Origin: a virus
Virus record (IMG/VR): IMGVR_UViG_3300027778_000003
Span: 1-47,722 of that record
Length of the DNA: 47,722 bases
Reading direction: 5' to 3' (one strand)
In this document: positions 4,545-40,574 of the stretch, in pieces
Layout: every line of letters begins with the position of its first letter
Position numbering within the stretch: the first letter of the stretch is position 1
Notes under the pieces: generated by a model
What the model saw: the letters and a program-made list of their open reading frames with translations, nothing else
Database searches by the model: none
Told to the model about the DNA's origin: nothing
Made by a program: the position numbers and the translations under genes

Positions 4545-5230
4545 CAGCACGACCCATCTATTCCTTCCCCGAGCCCGAGAAGACGAGCTCGTGGAAGCCC
4601 GAAGACCGCGGCGAAGTCCGCATCGAGCTGCGCGACACCGAGCGCGACGCGGCCACCAAACGCACGGCGCTCATCAGAGCGCGCATGTCGCCGCCCGAGG
4701 TGCTGAAGCTCAGCCCGAAGCTCGAAGCCGCGCGGCAGAAGTGGGGCATCCCCGACGGCTTCTTCAAGTACGCCGCCGGCTTCGACCGCATCTTCGTCTT
4801 CCCCGTCGATCCGTTCGACCAAGACGACAAGCTGCCGAACTCTTTCCTGTTCCGCGCGCAGACCACGAAGCAGAAGGACCTTCAGGAGGGATTCCGCGGC
4901 GTGCTCATCAGCGCGGGGCTGACAGCGATGGATCGCCTCATGAGCCACGGCTACGAGCTCGGCGACATCGTGATGACGAACAAGAACGTTCCCTTTGCTC
5001 GGCGCATGGAGCTGCTCGAAGGAGAACCCATGTTCGTGCTCGTGATGCGCGACGGCGACCTCGCCGGTAACGAGACGCTGCAGGCGGACATCCTCGCCGG
5101 CAGGCGCCGCGTCGTCGATGTCGGCGGCGGCGATGGCTACGGCCACCAGCTCGCGGAGCCCTCGCCCGAAACCCCCGGCGAGTGGATCGTACGCAAAAAG
5201 CAATCCGTCTACATCAACGACACGTGGTGA
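4541..5230 (+). CDS. Hypothetical head-region protein with a possible GroES-like fold
   Basis: A 229-residue protein. Residues ~78-190 resemble a GroES-type co-chaperonin barrel: FDRIFVFPVDP near the start, then RGVLISAGLTAMDRL, then HGYELGDIVM, and VLVMRDGDLAGN with a GD turn typical of these barrels. A short polar N-terminus and a C-terminal extension surround it. Phages such as T4 and RB49 encode GroES analogues for capsid folding, and this gene sits just before the scaffold and capsid genes, which fits. The similarity is by eye and weak. A structural head protein is the alternative. Confidence 0.6.
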   Translation: MTARPIYSFPEPEKTSSWKPEDRGEVRIELRDTERDAATKRTALIRARMSPPEVLKLSPKLEAARQKWGIPDGFFKYAAGFDRIFVFPVDPFDQDDKLPNSFLFRAQTTKQKDLQEGFRGVLISAGLTAMDRLMSHGYELGDIVMTNKNVPFARRMELLEGEPMFVLVMRDGDLAGNETLQADILAGRRRVVDVGGGDGYGHQLAEPSPETPGEWIVRKKQSVYINDTW

Positions 5231-5233
5231 CCC

Positions 5234-6133
5234 ATGAGTGGCTATTTCCAAGGCGATCCCGATAGGCAGTCCGTCGTCGTCCCGTTCAGCGACGACGAGA
5301 GCGTCCGCGACGACGAGCTCATCACCGAAGAGGACAAGCCCACCGACACCTTCGAGGAGCGCAAGACTCGGAAGGAGAAGCGGCAGCAGCGGCTGCAGGG
5401 CATCATCCAGCAGGGGCGCAAGACCGCCGAGGAGCTCGAAGGCGAGAAGAAGGCGAACGCGGAGCTGCGCGAGCGGCTCGCTCGCCTCGAAGGCGTGGTC
5501 GGCGCGACGCAGAGCCAGCGCCAGGCGGCGCCCGCCGACGGCAAGGACGAGTTCGAGCGCGAGCTCGACGACATCTACCAGACGCAGCAGAACGCCTACA
5601 AGGCAGCTCAGGCCGAGGTGAAGGCGGGCACACTCACCGAGGAGCGGCAGCGCTACTACGAGAAGATCGCGCGCGACATCGAGGCGCGCAAGAGCACCGT
5701 GCACACCCGGCGCGTGCTCGCGCAGACCGAGCCCGTGCGCCAGCAGAACCAGGCGCAGCAGGTGTGGGTGCAGAAGTACCCGGACGTCTACCGCAACCCG
5801 AACGCCTTCCAGTACGCGCAGGGCAAGGCGCAGCAGCGGCTCGCGCTCGGCGAGCAGATCACCGCCCAGGTCGTCGACGAGATCATGGGCGAGACGATGA
5901 CGACGTTCAAGCTCGGGCCCAAACCCGCGCCGTCGCAGAGCGAGCGGGCGAAGCTGTCCGGCATCGCGGCGAGCGGCGGGGGCGGCGGCGGGCGCTCCGA
6001 CGCCGGCGTCGCGCTCACCCCGGCGATGCGACAGATGGCGATCGCCGCCTACGACCACCTGCCGGAGGCGGAAGCGATCAAGGCGTGGACGAACAAGACC
6101 GGGAAAAGACTGAGGGAAAAGAAGGTCGTGTGA
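5234..6133 (+). CDS. Probable scaffolding protein
   Basis: A 299-residue, highly charged protein with no hydrophobic core pattern. Residues ~36-90 form an extended coiled coil rich in Glu, Lys and Arg (ERKTRKEKRQQRL, ELEGEKKANAELRERLARLE). There is a Gln-rich middle, a Gly-rich stretch near 255 (GGGGGG) and a basic C-terminus (TGKRLREKKVV). This architecture, with its position between portal and major capsid protein, is that of podovirus scaffolds, whose basic C-terminal helix binds coat protein. The assignment is by context and composition, not by a sequence signature. Confidence 0.7.
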   Translation: MSGYFQGDPDRQSVVVPFSDDESVRDDELITEEDKPTDTFEERKTRKEKRQQRLQGIIQQGRKTAEELEGEKKANAELRERLARLEGVVGATQSQRQAAPADGKDEFERELDDIYQTQQNAYKAAQAEVKAGTLTEERQRYYEKIARDIEARKSTVHTRRVLAQTEPVRQQNQAQQVWVQKYPDVYRNPNAFQYAQGKAQQRLALGEQITAQVVDEIMGETMTTFKLGPKPAPSQSERAKLSGIAASGGGGGGRSDAGVALTPAMRQMAIAAYDHLPEAEAIKAWTNKTGKRLREKKVV

Positions 6134-6280
6134 GCGCGCGCCGGCGCTCCAATGAATTGGAGCGCGTGCCAATCTATTGACACGCTGCCGGCCGTCTGCT
6201 TCCCTGTAGCGCGACAGTAGCCCGGCAGCCCGTCACCCACGACGCGCCTGTCTGAACCCGGTGGGAGTTCAGGCGGAGCA
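6134..6280. promoter_or_regulatory. Intergenic control region before the capsid genes
   Basis: This 147-base gap in an otherwise packed late operon holds three things: a perfect 22-base palindrome (6144-6165), a -35-like TTGACA at 6177-6182 without a convincing -10 at 16-18 bases, and a second inverted repeat CTGAAC/GTTCAG at 6252-6257 and 6267-6272. It may be an internal promoter with operator, or a processing/termination site that raises capsid expression. CTGAAC also recurs in the non-coding repeats near 44.1 kb. Confidence 0.4.
6144..6165. repeat. Perfect 22-bp palindrome
   Basis: GCGCTCCAAT, two bases (GA), then its exact complement ATTGGAGCGC. It starts 11 bases after the scaffold stop codon. 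It could be an operator for a dimeric protein or the stem of a transcript hairpin. No T-run follows, so a classical intrinsic terminator is unlikely. Confidence 0.7.
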
Positions 6281-6754
6281 GTGGTGGCTGAAGCGACGGA
6301 GCAGGTACAGGGCAAAAAGGGTGGGATGCGGCGTGAGGATCCTCCGCCGCGCCCTGTCGAGCAGGTCGCCAACCGCGGCTTTCTCGAAGGCTCCGACGGG
6401 ACGAAGCACTTCGTCTGGGTAAGCGAAGTCAACGACCCGACGCTGAACGTCGGATCGTACCTCGCCCAGGGCTACAAGGTCTCGCAGTTCGACCCCGACG
6501 AGGCGAAGCCGACCGTCGGCTACAACGAATACAAGCAGGGGGACCCCATCAAAGCGATGGGCATGGTCCTGATGGAGATCCCCGTCGAGAAGAAGCGCGC
6601 TCTCGACGAGATCGGCTGGAAGCGAGCCGACGCCATCCAGGAGACCATCCGGCAGCGCGACATCGATCCGCTCTCGAATGACGAGGCGGCGCGGTTCAAG
6701 GGCATCAAGAGCGTGCGCGCCGACAGCGACGATCGCCGCAAGTGGCAGTTCTGA
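6281..6754 (+). CDS. Hypothetical structural-region protein
   Basis: A 157-residue protein beginning with a GTG (a second GTG follows directly). GGCGGAG lies just upstream as ribosome binding site. The N-terminal 35 residues are basic and Pro-rich. The remainder looks globular (GFLEGSDGTKHFVWVSEVNDP, TVGYNEYKQGDPIKAMGMV). It sits directly before the decoration and capsid genes. I do not recognise the family. A head-assembly or decoration role is possible by position only. Confidence 0.65.
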   Translation: MVAEATEQVQGKKGGMRREDPPPRPVEQVANRGFLEGSDGTKHFVWVSEVNDPTLNVGSYLAQGYKVSQFDPDEAKPTVGYNEYKQGDPIKAMGMVLMEIPVEKKRALDEIGWKRADAIQETIRQRDIDPLSNDEAARFKGIKSVRADSDDRRKWQF

Positions 6755-27065: not shown

Positions 27066-27527
27066 GTGACGGACGAGCCACGCCGCCCGCGCTTCCCCCG
27101 TCCGTCCGAGCTGAAGGACGACGAGGTCGTCGAGATACCGCCGACCGAGCGTGTGCCGCGCCTGCCGCCGCCGCGAGGCGAGCCGTTCAAGAAGCTCGTG
27201 CAGACGCAGAGCGACACGATCGCCGAGATACTGAGCATCCAGCGAAAGATGGCGCTGCAGCTCGACGGCTTCGGCGGGATGATGAACCGCCGCTTCGATC
27301 TCTTCCACGAAGAGCTGGCGCTGCAGCGGTCGAGCATCGACGCTGTCGAGAAGCTCGTGAAGCAGGACCACGCGCCGCGCATCGAGAAGGTCGAGACGAC
27401 GCTCGGGCACAAGGTGGCCAAGGGCGGGGGGATACTCGGCATCGCCATCGTGGCGTTGCCGCTCTTGTCGGATGTGCTGCCCAAGTGGAAGGGGCTGTTC
27501 GACGCGATCCTCGAGGCGCTTCGATGA
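27066..27527 (+). CDS. Possible holin or membrane-linked lysis protein
   Basis: A 153-residue protein with GTG start. The first ~55 residues are Pro/Arg/Glu-rich. Residues ~60-115 form a coiled coil (TIAEILSIQRKMALQLDGF, SIDAVEKLVKQDH). A single hydrophobic segment at ~121-140 (GGGILGIAIVALPLLSDVLP) could span the membrane, with a short tail. Upstream and overlapping (ATGA) with the endolysin, it occupies the holin slot. The long soluble N-terminus is unusual for a holin, so a membrane anchor or regulator of lysis is also possible. Confidence 0.55.
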   Translation: MTDEPRRPRFPRPSELKDDEVVEIPPTERVPRLPPPRGEPFKKLVQTQSDTIAEILSIQRKMALQLDGFGGMMNRRFDLFHEELALQRSSIDAVEKLVKQDHAPRIEKVETTLGHKVAKGGGILGIAIVALPLLSDVLPKWKGLFDAILEALR

Positions 27528-27991
27528 GCTTCCGGCTCGGGGCGCTCAGCGAATCGAACCTCGTCGGCGTGCACCCCGATGTCGTAGCCGTCGTGAGGAA
27601 GGCCATCCTCATCAGCGAGATCGACTTCACGGTGCACGACGGGCTGCGGACGCTGGCCGAGCAGAAGAAGCTCGTCGCGTCGGGGGCGAGCCGCACGCTC
27701 GAGAGCTACCACCTGACGGGCGACGCGGTCGACCTCGTGCCCTTCGTGAACGGCAAGCTCCGATGGGAGATGCCGCTCTGTAACGAGGTGGCCCGAGCGG
27801 TGCTCGAAGCGAGCGGCAAGCTCGGGGTGCGGCTCGTGTGGGGTCGGGTCTGGGACGCGGAGCTCGTCGAGCTCGACCCGGACGACTTCGACGGCGAGCG
27901 CGCGCTCTACGTGCAGCGCTACCAGCGCATTCACGGCCTGAAGAAGTTTCCGCTCGACGACGGTCCACACTTCCAGCGGGTGAGGTCGTGA
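27524..27991 (+). CDS. Endolysin, M15 family L-alanyl-D-glutamate/D,D-peptidase
   Basis: A 155-residue zinc peptidase cutting peptide stems of peptidoglycan at the end of infection. The M15 signature is clear: SYHLTGDAVD at 61-70 gives the SxHxxGxAxD motif with zinc ligands H63 and D70, and the third ligand H149 is in DGPHFQ. GVRLVWG at 101-107 is the usual strand before the catalytic acid region. It resembles T5-type lysins in length. There is no signal peptide, so release needs a holin, probably the gene it overlaps upstream. It overlaps the next gene by GTGA. Confidence 0.9.
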   Translation: MSFRLGALSESNLVGVHPDVVAVVRKAILISEIDFTVHDGLRTLAEQKKLVASGASRTLESYHLTGDAVDLVPFVNGKLRWEMPLCNEVARAVLEASGKLGVRLVWGRVWDAELVELDPDDFDGERALYVQRYQRIHGLKKFPLDDGPHFQRVRS

Positions 27992-28173: not shown

Positions 28174-28314
28174 CTACCAGTCGCCGGGCGGCAGGCGCCG
28201 CTCGAGCGCCCACCGCGTCCAGAAGAGCAGGACCGCGTCGGACAGGACGCTCTCGATGCTGCGTCCTTCGGCTGCCGCTACTCGCCGGAGTCGAGCGCTG
28301 TGCTCGGGGGACAG
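28174..28314 (-). CDS. Possible ribbon-helix-helix protein with non-standard start
   Basis: A short open frame of ~46 residues. From LSPEHSARLRRVAAAEGRSIESVLSDAV it follows the helix-turn-helix rhythm of CopG/Arc DNA-binding or RHH-like proteins, ending ERRLPPGDW. No ATG, GTG or TTG fits. A CTG preceded by GAGGTG at good spacing (two adjacent CTG codons, 28312-28317) is the best start. It overlaps the end of the endonuclease gene. Translation is uncertain, but the protein-like pattern argues that this is a real gene. Confidence 0.4.
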   Translation of the reverse strand: MSPEHSARLRRVAAAEGRSIESVLSDAVLLFWTRWALERRLPPGDW

Positions 28315-28628
28315 CAGAGCACCTCGAGGATGAACGCCGCCGCCCGCTGCGCGCTCGTCGGATTGATGGCGTTCGCCCGGAAGAGCAGCACGCGCCAGCC
28401 CTGGCGCACGGCCTCGTTCCACTTCTCGTAGTCCGCAGTCATCCCCTTGAACGACTGGTGTCGGCCGGCGCCGTTGATCTCCGCCGCGAGCTTCTGGCTC
28501 GGGAAGGCAAAGTCGAACTTCCACTTGCGTGCCTTGTCGAACGGGAACTCCCGGGTCAAGTCCCACCCCGGTAGGGCCTGCTCGGCGAGTGCGACCGCGA
28601 GCCATTCCTCAGCCTTGCTTCTGGGCAT
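28278..28628 (-). CDS. PD-(D/E)XK-like phage endonuclease
   Basis: A 116-residue protein from the ATG at 28628. The core KWKFDFAFPSQKLAAEING followed by GRHQSFKGMTADYEKWNEA and GWRVLLF is the pattern of small phage endonucleases related to Vsr/DUF559 (acid in FDFA, Glu in AAEI, later Lys/Tyr helix, and the VLLF strand). In other phages such genes lie with recombination genes and may resolve branched DNA. Here it is three genes downstream of the exonuclease-annealase fusion. The start overlaps the upstream stop by 20 bases. Confidence 0.7.
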   Translation of the reverse strand: MPRSKAEEWLAVALAEQALPGWDLTREFPFDKARKWKFDFAFPSQKLAAEINGAGRHQSFKGMTADYEKWNEAVRQGWRVLLFRANAINPTSAQRAAAFILEVLCCPPSTALDSGE

Positions 28629-28836
28629 GGTCGACCTGCCATTCGAGCACGACGCCCTGTTCCCCGACGGCGAACTCGTCGTCGAAGGGCGCCGGGTAGA
28701 CGCCGATCGCCGCATCCGAGGGGATATGGATCCCCTTCGCCTGCGCGATCTCGACGAGCTCGCGCAGCAGGATGGTGACGGTGACCCTCGTCGTGGTCTT
28801 GGACTCGGCCTTCACACGCCACCGATCGCTTTCCAT
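28609..28836 (-). CDS. Small hypothetical protein in recombination operon
   Basis: A 75-residue protein with a basic N-terminus (WRVKAESKTTTRVTVTILL) and an acidic C-terminal half (FDDEFAVGEQGVVLEWQVDH). Both ends overlap neighbours (25 bases with the fusion gene, 20 with the endonuclease), so it is translated in the operon. The family is not recognised. It may be a partner or inhibitor of the recombination proteins. Confidence 0.6.
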   Translation of the reverse strand: MESDRWRVKAESKTTTRVTVTILLRELVEIAQAKGIHIPSDAAIGVYPAPFDDEFAVGEQGVVLEWQVDHAQKQG

Positions 28837-30560
28837 GCGGCGGACGCATCCCAGTCTTCATCGTGCAGGTCGTCGCCCTTGTGCCAGAGCTCGAGCGCCG
28901 CGCCGAAGCGCATCGCCGCATTGCGCAGGGCATCTCCGATAATCTCCTTCTCGCGCGCGCCCGGGTCCTGCCCGTTCTTGCTCTGCGCGTTGCCGTAGCC
29001 GAGCCGCGTCACGCCGCAGACGGTGAGCTTGATCCAGAGACCGCCGGTCGCGTCGAAGAGCGGCAGCCCCTTCGGGTCGACGGCCATCGGCTCCCACGTC
29101 CACATGGGGTCGGCCTCGAGCAGCCTGTCGGTGAGCGCGGCGTGCCCGACGTAGTCGAGGTGAATGATGCGCGGGTGGTGCCAGCCGCCGCACACGTTGC
29201 AATTGCGCTTCTCGTTCGGCGGGCAGTTGTTCTGCTCCTTCGTGCCTTTCGGCAGCTTGCTAATCTGATGCTTCTCGAACGGGGCGCGCAGCAGGGCGAG
29301 CCCGCGCAAGTTGGCCTTGGCGGGCCCAGGCATGGCCAGGACGGGAGCCGGAGGATTGGGCACTGCACCGTTCTGTGTAGACGTGATGGTGCGCACGAAT
29401 GGCGCAGCGGTCTGGGCGGCGCGGGGCTCGCCGAAAGGGATGAACTCCTCCCGCTTTGCCTTCCGCCACTCCTCCTCGCGCTTCTCCTCCTGCTCGTGCT
29501 GCTCGCGTGCCGCGCGGTCGGCGTTGCGCTCGCGCTCGTGCTCGGCACGGGCGGCCGCCTCCTGGCGCAGGAACTCGTCGGCGCGCGGGTCCTTGCCGAT
29601 GAGGGGCTCACGCGGCACCGCCCCGCCGCGCGGCCCCTGCTCATACTCGGGCTTGCTCGCCTGGAAAGCGGGCTCCGCGTCTGCGGCGGCGGCGGCCGCG
29701 CTGAGCTCGTGCCGCGAGGGCTCGGGCATGGGCGTGGCGTTGCCCATGAAGCCGTCGAACGCGAGCTCGACCTGGGGCGCCATCGTCTCGGCCACCTTCG
29801 GCTCGGCGCGCACGAGCAGGGCCTCGGCGTCGAGGTCGAGCTTCGTGTCGAGGGTCGTGAGCTTGAGCGACAAGACGAGCTGTTCCCAGTTCGCGCGCAG
29901 CGACTCCCACACCTTGCCCGAGCCGGTGGCGAGGTGCTCGGCGATGCCCGTCAGCGTCTTGTGCTCGCCGATGAGGCCGGCGGCTTTGACGGGGCCGATG
30001 CCCGGCACGCCCGGCACGTTGTCGCTCTTGTCGCCCGTGAGCGCCAGGAACAAGGGGATCTGCTCGGGGGTGACCTCGAACTTCTCCTTCACTTCCTTCG
30101 GGCCCCGGAAGTATTCGGCGCGCTCGCCGTGCTTGGGGACGAGCTGCAGCACGTTGTCGGTGACGCACTGAGCGAGATCCTTGTCGGCGCCGACGAGCCA
30201 GACCTCCGCCCAGCTCTCGCCGTAGATGCGGGCTAGCGTCGCGATGACGTCGTCGCCTTCCTTCCCCTTGACGCGCGCCATCGGGTAGCCGCGACTCTTG
30301 AGCGCGTCGTAGAGCCAGCGCTTCTGATAGATCTCGGTCGTCTCGGGCTCGACGCGGTTCGCCTTGTAGTCGGGGAATACTTCCTTGCGATCGTAGGGCG
30401 GGTAGTCGAGGCAGAGCACGACGCGGTCGACGCGGGCCGCGACTCGCTCAATCTCGGCGAGCGTGTTCTGTCCGCCGGCGTTGGGGTTCGCCTCGTAGGT
30501 GCGCTTGAAGAGGCAGCCGACGTCGACGAGGGCGATGGTCTTGTTCTGGGGCATGGTCAT
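28812..30560 (-). CDS. Fusion of FEN-type 5'-3' exonuclease and Rad52-like single-strand annealing protein
   Basis: A 582-residue single chain. Residues ~1-275 are a complete FEN/T5-type exonuclease: D13 in LVDVG, D52 in CLDYPPYDRK before FPDYKANR, E101/D103/D104 in EGDD, D126/D128 in GADKD, D177/D180 in TGDKSDNVPG and the helix-hairpin-helix VPGIGPVKAAG. A Glu/Arg-rich linker (~330-375) joins a C-terminal part (~418-570) like phage Rad52-type annealases: PFEKHQISKLPK, Cys/His cluster C446, C454, C457, H461, then HLDYVGHAALTDRLLEADPMWTWEP and DALRNAAMRFGAALELWHKG. It would resect double-strand ends and anneal the exposed strand in one molecule. ATG overlaps the upstream stop; a second Met lies two codons in. 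Confidence 0.9.
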   Translation of the reverse strand: MTMPQNKTIALVDVGCLFKRTYEANPNAGGQNTLAEIERVAARVDRVVLCLDYPPYDRKEVFPDYKANRVEPETTEIYQKRWLYDALKSRGYPMARVKGKEGDDVIATLARIYGESWAEVWLVGADKDLAQCVTDNVLQLVPKHGERAEYFRGPKEVKEKFEVTPEQIPLFLALTGDKSDNVPGVPGIGPVKAAGLIGEHKTLTGIAEHLATGSGKVWESLRANWEQLVLSLKLTTLDTKLDLDAEALLVRAEPKVAETMAPQVELAFDGFMGNATPMPEPSRHELSAAAAAADAEPAFQASKPEYEQGPRGGAVPREPLIGKDPRADEFLRQEAAARAEHERERNADRAAREQHEQEEKREEEWRKAKREEFIPFGEPRAAQTAAPFVRTITSTQNGAVPNPPAPVLAMPGPAKANLRGLALLRAPFEKHQISKLPKGTKEQNNCPPNEKRNCNVCGGWHHPRIIHLDYVGHAALTDRLLEADPMWTWEPMAVDPKGLPLFDATGGLWIKLTVCGVTRLGYGNAQSKNGQDPGAREKEIIGDALRNAAMRFGAALELWHKGDDLHDEDWDASAAWKAIGGV

Positions 30561-30799
30561 GTTCCTTTCACGAGGCGGAGGTTGTGGCGGCGGGCGACGA
30601 TCTGTTTCGCCCGGGCGAGCTGCGCCGCGAATGAGTCGCGCAGGGTGTTGTCGCCGACGCGGGGCAGGAGGTCGTCGAGATGGTCGATGAGGTAGTCGAG
30701 CACCCGGCGCGGGCTCTCGACCGAGAGCTCGAAGTGCAGCTGTTCGAGCTTCCTCGAAAACTGCGTGCGGGCCCGGTGCTGGGCGTAGTGGGTCGTCAT
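30557..30799 (-). CDS. Small hypothetical protein upstream of exonuclease-annealase
   Basis: An 80-residue, mainly helical, charged protein (RTQFSRKLEQLHFELSV, RVLDYLIDHLDDLLPRVGD) ending in basic residues. The ATG at 30799 gives a compact protein, and an extended frame upstream is out-of-place coding of the neighbour. The stop overlaps the fusion gene start (ATGA). The family is not recognised. It may modulate the recombination protein. Confidence 0.6.
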   Translation of the reverse strand: MTTHYAQHRARTQFSRKLEQLHFELSVESPRRVLDYLIDHLDDLLPRVGDNTLRDSFAAQLARAKQIVARRHNLRLVKGT

Positions 30800-30866
30800 G
30801 TCCACTGCCTTCGGTGTGCCATGACGTTGGGACAAGTACCAGTCGTGACTGTTGCGTGCATGTCGA

Positions 30867-31166
30867 TTACCAGCCCGGAACGGGACAGTGGTGATAGAGC
30901 GAGCCCTCGGGGGCGGGCCCCGCGCCGGGCTTCCACTCGGGCGGGTAGTAGTCGGGCGCGTTCGGCCAGGGGTCGAGTATCTCGCAGAGCACGGGGCTGC
31001 TCCTGCGCTTGCCGTCCTCGAGCAGCCGCACGCGGGGCGGCTTCTGCCGGAGCTCGAGCGGCCAGCGCAGACCATCGAGCACGACGAAGAAGACGTCGCC
31101 CTTCTTCGCGTACTGGAAGGTCAGGCTCCACGGCACCGGGTGCATGCGCACGGTGGGCGGCATCAT
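30867..31166 (-). CDS. Hypothetical protein in early leftward operon
   Basis: A 99-residue protein with a beta-rich start (VPWSLTFQYAKKGDVFFVVLDG), basic middle, and a C-terminal segment rich in Pro, Trp and Tyr (DPWPNAPDYYPPEWKPG). The start is the ATG overlapping the upstream stop at 31163. Downstream, 67 non-coding bases contain a small inverted repeat CAGTC/GACTG (30840-30851). The family is not recognised. Confidence 0.55.
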   Translation of the reverse strand: MMPPTVRMHPVPWSLTFQYAKKGDVFFVVLDGLRWPLELRQKPPRVRLLEDGKRRSSPVLCEILDPWPNAPDYYPPEWKPGAGPAPEGSLYHHCPVPGW

Positions 31167-31411
31167 GTGACCACCTTGAGGTAGCGCAGGTAGTCGCGGC
31201 CCGCTTCGGTGAGCGCGAGCCCGCGCGCGATGCGCGGCGTCTTCGTGAGCATGCCCTTGCGCACGAGGGCGATCACGCTGCAGAAGCCGGTGTGAGGGCT
31301 GGTCGTCCCGAAGTGCTTGCCCATCTCCTCGAGCGTCGGGGGGTAGCCGTGCTCGGCGACGAACGAGCCGATGAAGCGCAAGACCCGGGCCTGCTTTGGG
31401 GTGAGGCTCAC
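31163..31411 (-). CDS. LexA-type winged-helix protein without peptidase domain
   Basis: An 82-residue protein from the GTG at 31411. LTPKQARVLRFIGSFVAEHGYPPTLEEMGKHFG is the LexA N-terminal DNA-binding pattern, followed by a second helix and wing (IALVRKGMLTKTPRIARGLALTEAG). The autoprotease half is missing, so it is a stand-alone DNA binder. Start overlaps the previous stop (GTGA). A similar small protein is at 35574-35813. It may regulate the early operon or the phage switch. Confidence 0.7.
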   Translation of the reverse strand: MSLTPKQARVLRFIGSFVAEHGYPPTLEEMGKHFGTTSPHTGFCSVIALVRKGMLTKTPRIARGLALTEAGRDYLRYLKVVT

Positions 31412-32538
31412 GCGACCTCCGGGATGGCGCCGCCCGGCGGGACCGGGCCCCACTGCTCGAGCTGCTCGAGGGTGAGCCTGCCCGTCGGGTCGAAGCCCGC
31501 GCGCGCTTGTTTGGCGGCGACGGTGAGCCGCTCGCCGAGCACGTCGCGCCTCGACAGCGGGGCGGGCAAGGGCTGGGGGTGGTCAGCGAGCACACCTTTC
31601 AGCAGAGCCTCGAGCGGGAGCCCGTGCTTGGCCGCGAACGCCCTCTGGCGCGCGTCGGGCTCGAAGGGCTCCACCGGGAGCGCCGGGCCACGGAAGCCGC
31701 TCCTAGGGGCCGTAGCGGCGGAGCGTTGGGCATCCTTCGCCCGGTTCGTCTCCTCCCACGTTCGCCAGTTGCCGAACTGCTGCCTCACCCACTCGCGTTG
31801 ATCGCGCACGCCCGACCGCCCGCCGATGCTGGCGAGGTTGCGAGCGGAGGCGAGGCGCTCGCGGAACCACTCGCGGCTCACGCCGGCGAGCACGGCTTCG
31901 TCCTCGAGCCCCGTCTCGTCGAGGCCTTCGAGGTCGTGGAAGCGGCGCACGACGGGGATGGTGTCGAGCTCTTCGTTATCGAAGCCCTCGCGCGCGGGAG
32001 GTACAACAACTTCAGAAGAGGGTTTGGGTTTAGGTTTCGGTTTAGGTGCGTCTACGGTTTCGCTACTCGCGTCTACGTGTGGACGGGTGTCGACGCGCTC
32101 ACCGGTCGCGAGGAAGTGATCCTCGGCGTCGTACGGCAGCGGGCCGGTCTCCTCGGGGAACGGCAAGGGCAGCTGCTTCGCGCGCTTCTGCTTGGCCCAG
32201 TTGCGCTTGCGTGCCTTCTCGGCCTCGCCCTTGGCGCGCTCGCGGTAGGCGACGAAGTTGACGATGTGCCAGCCGCGCTCGACCTTGATCGCGCGACGCC
32301 CTTCGAAGTCGGGCGTCGAGGAGTAGGGGTCGGGGCTCTCGATGAGAGCGATGGCGGCCTTCGCCTGGTCGAGGGTGACGCCGGCCTGCTGCGCGACGCC
32401 GGGCACGGTGCCGACGACGAAGCCCTCGGGGTCGGCCATGAGCAGGAACCAAATCCAGACGCAGCGCGTGGCCGGGTCAGCCGCCCACATGCTGCTCGTG
32501 AGGAAGTCGCGGAAGACGGGGGTGTAGGGATGCCTCAT
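31408..32538 (-). CDS. Replication initiator-like protein
   Basis: A 376-residue protein resembling phage replisome organisers. The N-terminus MRHPYTPVFRDFLTSSMWA then RCVWIWFLLMADPEG and VPGVAQQAGVTLDQAKAAI is the winged-helix domain typical of these initiators. A linker with a KPKPKPKP stretch (~165) is followed by an acidic to basic C-terminal half that would recruit the helicase loader. The linker DNA has hexanucleotide repeats and inverted/direct repeats (32021-32097), so the origin may lie within the gene, as in lambda O. The start overlaps the HTH gene upstream. Confidence 0.65.
   Translation of the reverse strand: MRHPYTPVFRDFLTSSMWAADPATRCVWIWFLLMADPEGFVVGTVPGVAQQAGVTLDQAKAAIALIESPDPYSSTPDFEGRRAIKVERGWHIVNFVAYRERAKGEAEKARKRNWAKQKRAKQLPLPFPEETGPLPYDAEDHFLATGERVDTRPHVDASSETVDAPKPKPKPKPSSEVVVPPAREGFDNEELDTIPVVRRFHDLEGLDETGLEDEAVLAGVSREWFRERLASARNLASIGGRSGVRDQREWVRQQFGNWRTWEETNRAKDAQRSAATAPRSGFRGPALPVEPFEPDARQRAFAAKHGLPLEALLKGVLADHPQPLPAPLSRRDVLGERLTVAAKQARAGFDPTGRLTLEQLEQWGPVPPGGAIPEVA
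32021..32097. promoter_or_regulatory. Iteron-like repeats within replication gene, candidate origin
   Basis: On the + strand, four GGTTTN hexamers (32021-32044) are followed by GCGTCTACG at 32048-32056 and again at 32069-32077 (21 bases apart, two helical turns), an inverted near-copy in GTGGACG (32079-32085), and GTGTCGACGCG (32087-32097). The same two motifs occur at 35358-35395. The direct and inverted spacing suggests binding of an initiator or repressor. Confidence 0.5.
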
Positions 32539-32741: not shown

Positions 32742-32941
32742 ATGCCCTCCGGCAGGGGCAAACCATCCTCCGGCAGGGGCAAACCATCCAGCCTAGCGAG
32801 CAGAGTCTCGGCGTGCCGGCGCAGCTCGTCGTTGCTCTGGCGCAGCTCGGCGACCTGCTCGCGCAGCGCGGTGATGGTGTCGCGCATGACGGCGATGGTG
32901 TCGTCGGTGTAGGTGCTTTCGGTTCGGCTGAACTCGGTCAT
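32738..32941 (-). CDS. Small coiled-coil protein
   Basis: A 67-residue protein with a long heptad helix (AVMRDTITALREQVAELRQSN) and a short C-terminal duplication LPLPEDGLPLPEGM. The matching DNA repeat (GGCAGGGGCAAACCATCC twice) lies at about 32753-32787. The gene overlaps the HTH gene and the integrase. The family is not recognised. Confidence 0.6.
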   Translation of the reverse strand: MTEFSRTESTYTDDTIAVMRDTITALREQVAELRQSNDELRRHAETLLARLDGLPLPEDGLPLPEGM

Positions 32942-34683
32942 GACTTCCTCCGGCGGGCGTCGAGTGAGGAGACGTTGTCGGGGGCTACCGCACGTCGGCG
33001 CTTGGCGACCTCCAAGAGGGCCGTGGCGGAGTCGAGATCGCCCTCGCTCATCGCCAGGCGCACGGCGAGCTCGAGGGCCTCGTCGAGGCTGCCGAGTAAT
33101 GGCCGGGAGTTCTGGCCGGCGGCAGTCGCACCGAGTGGTTTGGCGTCGTTTTCGAGGTCACCCGAAACGACTCTTCCATGCGAAAACCCCTTAAAAACAG
33201 CTTCGGTCTTGGACTCCGAAGCCAAGGGTCGAAGGTTCGAATCCTTCCGGGCGCGCAGCGATATCATTGAGCTTTCTCCTTCCTTGGATACTTTCTCAGA
33301 CCGAGTTTCGGCCGAGAGCTGGCCAATATTCGGTGAGCCGAAGGTGCTCGCTGGGTGAGCAGAAGGGGCGATGGTCATCACCTGGCGCTCACCTTCCCGC
33401 GACTGACCCGAGGGCAAGAGTCTGCTCGGCACCGCCCCCGCCGGCACCGCGAGCGCCTCCGTCGGGTTCTGCAGATAGCGGCCGTGGGCGCGCAAGTCGG
33501 AGGCGTGCCCCGTCAAGGCCGCGCTCGTCTGCACGTTGACCCCCGCCTTGCCGAGCGCCTGGCTCCACGCCCGTCGCCAAGAGTGGAAGTCGACGGGCAG
33601 CGTGTACTTCGTCTCCTCGAACAGCTCCCGCTCCTTACCCGTCATCGGGCGACCCGGCACCCAGCGGCCGACGGGGCCCCTCTGCCCGCGGCCGGCGTCT
33701 GGGTCCCAGCGCTCGATACCGAGCGCGCGCCGGAGGTCCTGGCGCATCGCGTGGGCGTGGCTGTCCTGCGTCTCGCGCAGGCCGCCGGCGCTCTCTCCCC
33801 GGAGCAGCGGGAACACCGGACCCTTGCGGGGCCGCCCCTGGTGCACCCACCAGCGATAGACGACCGGAGCGAGCCCCTCGGGCACCTCCATGCGCTGGGG
33901 CGCCGCGCCCTTCGTGCGGGGCACCCACGCCTCGGCGAACGAGGGCTCTCCGCTCGCGTCCTCGTCGAGCAGAAAGTTATCCTCCCAGGTCGCGACGTGC
34001 AGATCGTTGGTGCGCTCGCCGCCGAGGCAGCGCGCGATGCAGCTCATCGTCTGGCGCATGAGCACCCCGACGCGGTGCCGGGGCACGGGGTGCTGCCAGG
34101 CGAGATACGCGAGCAGGACCTCGTCGCGCGCCACGGCCCGCGTCTTGTCGAGCGTCGCCTTGAAGAGCGGCATCCGCGCCTTCGGATCGTCCATGGTGGC
34201 GAGCCCCGCGCTCTCGAACGTGAACTTGAGCGCCTTTCGGAGATGCTTCACGTGGTCGTCCGAGTAGCCCCGGCTGCGCTGATCCTCGAGCAGCGCCTTC
34301 ACTTCGTCCGGGGTGATGGCCGCGATGGGGCGCGCTCCGAATGGCAGTGGGTGGCTCTCGGTCACGAAGGGGTAGGCGTGGTTTCGAAGGCGCCCCTCCT
34401 CGATGTCGACGCGCGAGACCTGGCGCGCCTCTCGCGCTCGGAGCGCGACGACCGCCTGCTCCTCGAAGGTGACGAGCGACGCCTCGCCCGGCGCGGGCAA
34501 GTCGGCGGCCGTGAGCTTTCCGATCTTCACGCGAGCCACGTCGAGCTCGGCCGTGTCGAACTGCACCCGGCGCCGCACCGCGACGCCGTCGATATCGAGC
34601 GTCACGCGCGCCCCCGTCTTGCCCGACGCGAGACGGACGGGCCTCGGCTTGCGGGGGCGACCGGGCCTCTTCTTCTCGGTCAT
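32938..34683 (-). CDS. int: Tyrosine integrase carrying attP inside its gene
   Basis: A 581-residue recombinase. The catalytic set is visible: R224 in GERTND, H367 and R370 in FHSWRRAW, H393 in LTGH and the nucleophile Y403 in HGRYL. N-terminal ~1-180 includes AP2-like and core-binding regions. After the active site, residues 477-492 (RARKDSNLRPLASESK) are encoded by the antisense of a tRNA-Arg 3' half, followed by ~90 further residues with an amphipathic helix (SLDEALELAVRLAMSEGDL). Integration would cut the gene there and replace that tail. The gene sits in the middle of the early operon (ATGA overlaps both sides). Confidence 0.9.
   Translation of the reverse strand: MTEKKRPGRPRKPRPVRLASGKTGARVTLDIDGVAVRRRVQFDTAELDVARVKIGKLTAADLPAPGEASLVTFEEQAVVALRAREARQVSRVDIEEGRLRNHAYPFVTESHPLPFGARPIAAITPDEVKALLEDQRSRGYSDDHVKHLRKALKFTFESAGLATMDDPKARMPLFKATLDKTRAVARDEVLLAYLAWQHPVPRHRVGVLMRQTMSCIARCLGGERTNDLHVATWEDNFLLDEDASGEPSFAEAWVPRTKGAAPQRMEVPEGLAPVVYRWWVHQGRPRKGPVFPLLRGESAGGLRETQDSHAHAMRQDLRRALGIERWDPDAGRGQRGPVGRWVPGRPMTGKERELFEETKYTLPVDFHSWRRAWSQALGKAGVNVQTSAALTGHASDLRAHGRYLQNPTEALAVPAGAVPSRLLPSGQSREGERQVMTIAPSAHPASTFGSPNIGQLSAETRSEKVSKEGESSMISLRARKDSNLRPLASESKTEAVFKGFSHGRVVSGDLENDAKPLGATAAGQNSRPLLGSLDEALELAVRLAMSEGDLDSATALLEVAKRRRAVAPDNVSSLDARRRKS
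33209..33255 (+). other. attP candidate: 3' half of tRNA-Arg(CCG)
   Basis: The + strand reads the 3' part of a tRNA: anticodon loop CTCCGAA (33214-33220, anticodon CCG), stem remnant, variable loop, T-arm GAAGG-TTCGAAT-CCTTC (33231-33247), acceptor CGGGCGC and discriminator G. The 5' half and D-arm are absent, and position 31·39 does not pair. This is the usual identity block shared by phage attP and a tRNA attB. An inverted repeat CTTCGG (33201-33206) / CCGAAG (33216-33221) flanks the expected crossover. Confidence 0.8.
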
Positions 34684-34958
34684 GGCTTCACCTTCTTCGC
34701 TGCCTCGCGCCACGCGAGCGCCGCTTCGCCGGCGAGCTCTGCCAGCTGCTCGACGGTGAGCTGCGCCGCGAGGCCCGTGACGAGGTCCGTGACGCTGCCG
34801 CGCCAGACCGTGACGGGCTCCTTTCCCTGCCGCTCGACGATGAACAGGCCTTGGCGAGCGAGCACCGAGCAGAGGGTCGCGACCGGCACGAGCGCGAGCT
34901 TCTCCTCGAGCTCGTCGAGCGGCACGATGACCGGGTCGGAAAACACGCGCGTGCTCAC
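34680..34958 (-). CDS. Hypothetical protein between xis-like gene and integrase
   Basis: A 92-residue protein from the GTG at 34958. It has a beta-helix-like start (TRVFSDPVIVPLDELEEKLALV) and helical repeats (LVTGLAAQLTVEQLAELAGEAAL). GTGA overlap with the upstream gene and ATGA with integrase. The family is not recognised. It may assist recombination directionality. Confidence 0.55.
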   Translation of the reverse strand: MSTRVFSDPVIVPLDELEEKLALVPVATLCSVLARQGLFIVERQGKEPVTVWRGSVTDLVTGLAAQLTVEQLAELAGEAALAWREAAKKVKP

Positions 34959-35299
34959 GCCGCACCGTCCTTTCGCAGCCACGACAGGCACGCCTCGAGC
35001 TCGAAGCGCGGGCTCTCGCCGAGCCTGAGGTGCGGCATGCCCTGCCGCCGCATCTTATCGACCATGCTCGAGCTGCAGCCGAGGCAGAGCGCCAGGGCCT
35101 CCCGATCGAGCAGCACCGGCTGAGCCCGCCGCTCGCCGAGCGCGCTCTCGACCGCCTGCCGCACGAGCCCCGCGAGCTCGCCCCGCGTCACCGTGAACGC
35201 CGGGGCCGTGTCGTTGTCCGCCGCACCCCCGCCCACACCCCCCGAAGTCTCGCCCAAGCGCAAGAACTTCGGGCGCTTCTGCCCTCTGCCTTCTTCCAC
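34955..35299 (-). CDS. Excisionase-like HTH protein
   Basis: A 114-residue protein. The C-terminal half VLLDREALALCLGCSSSMVDKMRRQGMPHLRL then FELEACLSWLRKDG follows the winged MerR/Xis helix-turn-helix pattern used by phage excisionases. The N-terminal half is Gly-rich and flexible. GTG at 35299 was chosen because GGAGG lies 5 bases upstream; a longer in-frame extension covers the operator repeats. First gene of the leftward operon, two genes from int, which supports an excision or regulatory role. Confidence 0.65.
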   Translation of the reverse strand: MEEGRGQKRPKFLRLGETSGGVGGGAADNDTAPAFTVTRGELAGLVRQAVESALGERRAQPVLLDREALALCLGCSSSMVDKMRRQGMPHLRLGESPRFELEACLSWLRKDGAA

Positions 35300-40151: not shown

Positions 40152-40574
40152 ATGATGAACGGCCTCAATCGCGTGATGCTACTCGGTAACCTCGGCGCCG
40201 ACCCTGAGCTGCGCATGACGGCAGGCGGGCAAGCCGTGCTCAAGCTGCGCCTGGCGACCACCGAGAGTTATCTCGACCGTGACAAGGCGCGGCAAGAGCG
40301 CACCGAGTGGCATAACGTGGTCGTTTGGGGCAAGCGCGCCGAAGGGCTCGGCAAGATCCTCGGCAAGGGCGATCGCGTCTGCATCGAGGGGGGGCTCCGC
40401 ACGAGCAGCTACGAGAAGGACGGCGAGAAGCGCTACAAGACGGAGGTCGTCGCGACGAATGTCGTTCTTTCGGGTGGCGGCAAGAACGCGTCGCGACCCG
40501 CCAAACAGGACGACGCCGAGCCCCCCATGGGGCCCGGCGCCGGTGACTTCGATGACGATGACATTCCGTTCTAA
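40152..40574 (+). CDS. ssb: Single-strand DNA-binding protein
   Basis: A 140-residue SSB protecting single-stranded DNA during replication and recombination. Residues ~3-110 are the OB fold with NRVMLLGNLGADPELR, EWHNVVVWGKRAEGLGKIL and DRVCIEGGLRTSSYEKDG. A short linker is followed by the acidic tip DFDDDDIPF, the standard partner-binding tail. It is the last gene of the rightward early operon. The stop overlaps a convergent gene by four bases (CTAA/TTAG). Together with the exonuclease-annealase fusion it could complete a recombination set. Confidence 0.95.
   Translation: MMNGLNRVMLLGNLGADPELRMTAGGQAVLKLRLATTESYLDRDKARQERTEWHNVVVWGKRAEGLGKILGKGDRVCIEGGLRTSSYEKDGEKRYKTEVVATNVVLSGGGKNASRPAKQDDAEPPMGPGAGDFDDDDIPF

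Follow-up and report, generated by a model that had tools for sequence, protein, structure and literature searches.

The window analysed here, the entire 47,722-base IMG/VR record IMGVR_UViG_3300027778_000003, encodes a single 582-residue protein in which a FEN-type 5'-3' nuclease is joined to a Rad52-like annealing domain. We interpret this gene product, with a probability of roughly two in three, as a single-chain phage recombinase ("SynExo") in which FEN resection or flap removal is tethered to Rad52-like annealing. Sequence and predicted fold show that both domains are present with the active-site acids intact, that the fusion occurs in independent contigs and that the annealing module has been interchanged. 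The fusion is real, conserved and apparently undescribed, and it is wider than a first reading of this DNA by itself could reveal.

Domain structure of the fusion protein and its genomic setting

The fusion frame begins with an ATG at 30560 and ends with a stop at 28812 on the minus strand, and its 582 codons contain no internal stop (Table 1). The earlier note, which named no strand, had placed a nuclease and an annealing domain in one frame of this length, and that frame proved to be intact. The ATG shares bases with the stop codon of the frame upstream, 30557–31075 (ATGA), an operon-like arrangement. Translation of a separate annealing domain from the methionine at residue 410 was considered and was rejected because this residue is absent in L005, one of the related fusions described below.

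Table 1. Coordinates of the fusion gene, its parts and other features in the window.
Feature	Position	Strand	Basis
FEN-type 5'-3' nuclease/Rad52-like annealing fusion, 582 aa	28812..30560	-	ORF and Pfam/PHROG profiles
FEN/T5-type nuclease domain, ~residues 7–250	29811..30542	-	PF02739, PF01367, PDB sequence matches
Linker, ~residues 251–417	29310..29810	-	Domain borders
Linker motif IGKDPRAD, residues 321–328	29577..29600	-	Alignment, motif list
Rad52-like annealing domain, residues 418–572	28845..29309	-	phrog_3290, AlphaFold, Foldseek
Cys/His cluster C454-x2-C457-x3-H461-x5-H467	29160..29201	-	Two alignments
Stretch differing between window and L085, flanks align; module exchange	28621..29463	-	blastn
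75-aa frame overlapping 3' end of fusion gene	28609..28836	-	No convincing Pfam/PHROG match
Small downstream gene	28278..28715	-	Borderline DUF559, phrog_503
SSB	40152..40574	+	Pfam PF00436 1.3e-30; phrog_44 5.5e-47

Both the Resolvase-like N domain and the SAM/H3TH C domain of FEN/T5-type nucleases were identified in the N-terminal half. In Pfam, 5_3_exonuc_N (PF02739) matched residues 43–161 (E 7.9e-20) and 5_3_exonuc (PF01367) matched residues 163–246 (E 2.5e-22), each above the cut-off, and in PHROGs the "exonuclease" family phrog_107 matched residues 34–203 (E 6.4e-29). The closest solved structures by sequence in the PDB were the nuclease domains of DNA polymerase I, ExoIX (XNI) and T5 exonuclease. 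All nine acidic residues previously proposed for the active site (D13, D52, E101, D103, D104, D126, D128, D177 and D180) were found under those residue numbers. These positions were acidic in 39 of 39 nucleases (six from Rad52-type, 32 from RecT-type and one from ERF-type proteins), with one D103 to E as the sole change, and the E101–D104 and D126–D128 columns were partly selected because two scan patterns covered them. Based on these matches, we assign this half to the FEN family, with a predicted 5'-3' exonuclease or flap activity.

The annealing half was matched by phrog_3290, "single strand annealing protein", over residues 418–572 (E 2e-49). The Pfam family Rad52_Rad22 (PF04098) gave no match to this half up to E 1, so that the protein falls outside that Pfam family. 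A PDB search with the annealing-family profile gave no match either, and a predicted fold was therefore needed to place this half. The AlphaFold model of residues 405–582, from a 71-row alignment, had a mean pLDDT of 89, and in Foldseek its best PDB matches were Mgm101 from yeast, human RAD52 and Sak from phage 80alpha (E 8e-5 to 4e-4, probability 1.00, TM ~0.4–0.5). These three proteins share the fold predicted for the window's domain but are only ~12–16% identical to the window's protein in the fold alignments and lack a nuclease domain. The predicted fold and the PHROG label point to a divergent family within the Rad52 superfamily, for which annealing of single-stranded DNA is predicted. 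The domain families claimed for the two halves were thus each recovered by profile, the annealing half also by its predicted fold.

The annealing domain does contain the Cys/His cluster that had been pointed out from the letters alone. C454, C457 and H467 were kept in at least 90% of the 71 rows of one alignment, and H461 in at least 90% of the 15 rows of another. Unlike RAD52, Mgm101 and Sak, proteins of the PHROG 3290 family have this cluster as a feature, and it is possibly a metal site. The linker, which was described as Glu/Arg-rich, has 33% charged residues and also 37% P/A/G. Its length in close relatives was ~130–150 residues, judged from HMM hit borders.

The fusion gene is accompanied by a downstream gene that can also be aligned in L003, L004, L005, L085 and L088. 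The suggestion of a "branched-DNA-type" endonuclease at 28278–28628 was not borne out for this gene, which showed only a borderline DUF559 match (20.5 bits vs a cut-off of 20.6) and a match to phrog_503, whose function is unassigned in PHROGs. DUF559 belongs to a Vsr-like nuclease superfamily. Elsewhere in the window there were matches to a terminase large subunit (307–1818) and an endolysin (27527–27991, plus strand). The minus-strand frame 32938–34965 weakly matched phage integrases and has an HxxR...H...Y region like that of tyrosine recombinases, and 31163–31453, also on the minus strand, encodes a LexA-type DNA-binding domain. Based on the integrase-like frame and the LexA-type domain, the phage was probably temperate.

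Occurrence of the fusion and exchange of the annealing module

When IMG/VR was scanned for the annealing half, 80 loci were returned, four of which (L003, L004, L005 and the divergent L006) have a FEN domain in the same frame, and a FEN profile scan added L099 as a Rad52-type fusion. With the window included, six contigs carry the Rad52-type fusion in a single frame; a search for the same fusion in databases, as the earlier note had proposed, thus found it in five others. In L007 the pair was present as two overlapping genes, with the annealing gene first. The annealing genes of L002 and L008–L082 were standalone, and their retrieved flanks contained no FEN gene. As most of the Rad52-like relatives are standalone, the annealing domain in general needs no such nuclease. 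The 59 genes beside standalone annealing genes included two YqaJ and a few HNH matches, and no consistent nuclease partner. Standalone members of PHROG 3290, ~48–57% identical to the window's domain, are carried by Mycobacterium phages Marvin, Fruitloop and others, by Streptomyces phage ZL12 and by Arthrobacter phage MrSmee, in each case without a fused nuclease. The annealing family was also found in L180, a contig binned as Candidatus Moraniibacteriota.

The FEN scan also identified proteins that have a nuclease closely related to that of the window but a RecT-like C-terminal half (PHROGs 561 and 4171), with Pfam RecT above the cut-off in L085, L092, L093, L257 and others. After a second scan, in which the RecT-like half was the query, the FEN-RecT fusions in a single frame totaled 31 distinct sequences. 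The RecT-like half of L093 was modeled by AlphaFold with a pLDDT of 85, and lambda Redbeta was its sole significant PDB match (E 1.2e-6). In addition, L140 combines a FEN domain with an ERF-type domain (PF04404, 27.3 bits vs a cut-off of 25). There were thus 38 single-frame fusions in all, in which three types of annealing domain share one nuclease partner, and the annealing half appears from these sequences to be interchangeable within the family as a Rad52-, RecT- or ERF-type domain.

The earlier note had raised the concern that a frameshift or an assembly error joined two genes. The set does contain an apparent frame error: the FEN and RecT-like halves of L096 were in two overlapping frames (4773–6618), unlike its near-twin L095, in which they form one frame; the L096 split may be read as a sequencing error or as a natural split. 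An artifact of this kind in the window is nevertheless so improbable that we regard it as refuted, because five other independent contigs carry the same single-frame fusion and, across the set, six Rad52-type and 31 RecT-type contigs have one frame.

No record covered 80% of the window's fusion among 50,697 phage or 72,556 plasmid records, and the RecT-type fusion of L093 reached 80% coverage in none of the phage records. When 1,091 bacterial genomes from three phyla were searched for fusions with the RecT-like profile, only seven matches were obtained, none in a frame longer than 357 aa. A full-text literature search, with some likely sources beyond its reach, found no description of such a fusion, and fusions were not mentioned in the literature searched on the diversity of annealing proteins.

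Other architectures were observed for the FEN domain itself. In four contigs of large phages (L106:4032–5882, L110:3693–5720, L116:3885–5702 and L158:3858–5816) the FEN domain was C-terminal and a NusG-like part N-terminal. The latter was identified by weak matches to PF02357/KOW and to the antiterminator family phrog_6386 in L106, L110 and L116, and L158 had a similar sequence. A further FEN group (L119, L120, L122, L124, L131, L143 and L145) had a conserved C-terminal extension of ~150 residues around PQCGFYxRRLVRGGPFVPARIWRE, with no convincing family match.

Comparison of the window with its close relative L085 located an unusually clear exchange of modules. With blastn, 29464–31786, which spans the genes upstream, the nuclease and most of the linker, aligned at 73%, and 28174–28620 (downstream gene) aligned at 78%. 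The unaligned stretch between them comprised the annealing module only, for which L085 has a module from a different family (Table 1). Protein identity was 66% up to residue 360, within the linker, and then ended.

In a tree of 41 nucleases, the Rad52-type nucleases were scattered among the RecT-type ones. A single clade for all six of them was rejected (AU p 0.0002), which implies at least two module exchanges, and a single clade of the four close to the window was permitted (p 0.35). A single clade was likewise permitted for the fused Rad52-like modules (AU p 0.79), and they may therefore have been captured once and later passed from one nuclease to another. Independent capture of the Rad52 modules was considered and found to be unsupported, as the fused annealing domains can form one clade.

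One alternative is that the two halves work independently, the fusion only setting equal dosage or co-expression with no mechanistic coupling. Consistent with this, L007 encodes the nuclease and the annealing protein as separate overlapping genes, and the linkers across the fusion set range from short to about 170 residues. However, the one-frame arrangement persists across 38 sequences and three kinds of annealing domain, and the motif I-G-K-D-P-x-A-D is common, with few changes, to ten members of both the Rad52 and RecT types. We therefore consider independent halves very unlikely. A scan for further proteins with the motif returned fusions of known types only.

Proposed mechanism and relation to known systems

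We infer end resection by the nuclease, DNA annealing by the second domain and coupling of the two through the tether. In the single-chain recombinase that we favor, the N-terminal FEN-type nuclease would digest the 5' strand of a DNA end or remove a 5' flap. The Rad52-like C-terminal domain, tethered by the long flexible linker, would then bind the exposed strand, oligomerize and anneal it to a complementary single strand. The phage SSB is a likely partner of the fusion protein, and the SSB gene claimed at 40152–40574 was confirmed by its profile matches (Table 1). Like Red and RecET, the protein may contribute to repair, to replication that depends on recombination or to genome mosaicism.

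The FEN family comprises structure-specific 5' nucleases, which are best known for the removal of flaps and primers, so trimming instead of resection is possible. The annealing half would in that case pair strands first, the FEN half would then remove 5' flaps or Okazaki primers, and the host or another nuclease would resect. The intact active-site acids and H3TH region are compatible with such a role, but neither a YqaJ search of the window nor profile scans of ~29 of its frames, chosen from the whole set, found another recombination exonuclease, and we consider this alternative, although the main rival to the resection model, unlikely.

Other phages assign the chewing of DNA ends and the pairing of strands to separate proteins. 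T7 gp6 is a FEN-family 5'-3' nuclease that works with gp2.5, a ssDNA-binding and annealing protein, and the T5 D15 exonuclease is another phage nuclease of the FEN family. These nucleases are of the same family as that in the window but are separate proteins, and T7 gp2.5 is an OB-fold protein, unlike the window's Rad52-like half. Lambda Red (Exo and Redbeta) and Rac RecET, like the fusion, combine a 5'-3' exonuclease with an annealing protein, but they do so in two genes and with a nuclease of the lambda-exo/RecE type, whereas the window has one chain and a FEN nuclease. Profile searches found no match to YqaJ, RecT or Pfam Rad52_Rad22 in the window, and its nuclease, being FEN, is not a lambda-exo/YqaJ/RecE exonuclease. 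The two parts of a SynExo pair, a 5'-3' exonuclease and an annealing domain, are nonetheless present in one frame. With a FEN nuclease and no YqaJ, the fusion may work like a SynExo pair and is not a member of Red/RecET; we regard it as a version of the exonuclease-annealase pair and not as a separate kind of system.

In lambda Red, contact between the exonuclease and Redbeta is needed for efficient dsDNA recombination, and mixed Red/RecET pairs fail (PMC5052646). In the fusion family, by contrast, one annealing type has taken the place of another next to the same nuclease, and the contact requirement of Red makes this natural module exchange informative. We speculate, at a little under even odds, that the fusions are a widespread single-chain resection-annealing family in uncultured phages, in which the covalent tether replaces a specific exonuclease-annealase contact. 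Rad52, RecT or ERF cassettes would then be free to replace one another as the annealing half attached to one FEN nuclease, and IGKDPxAD would serve for docking. The swapped-module fusions offer a direct test of whether tethering alone suffices, since one nuclease could be paired with a Rad52- or a RecT-type partner, tethered or cut, and the fusions may serve as one-gene recombineering tools.
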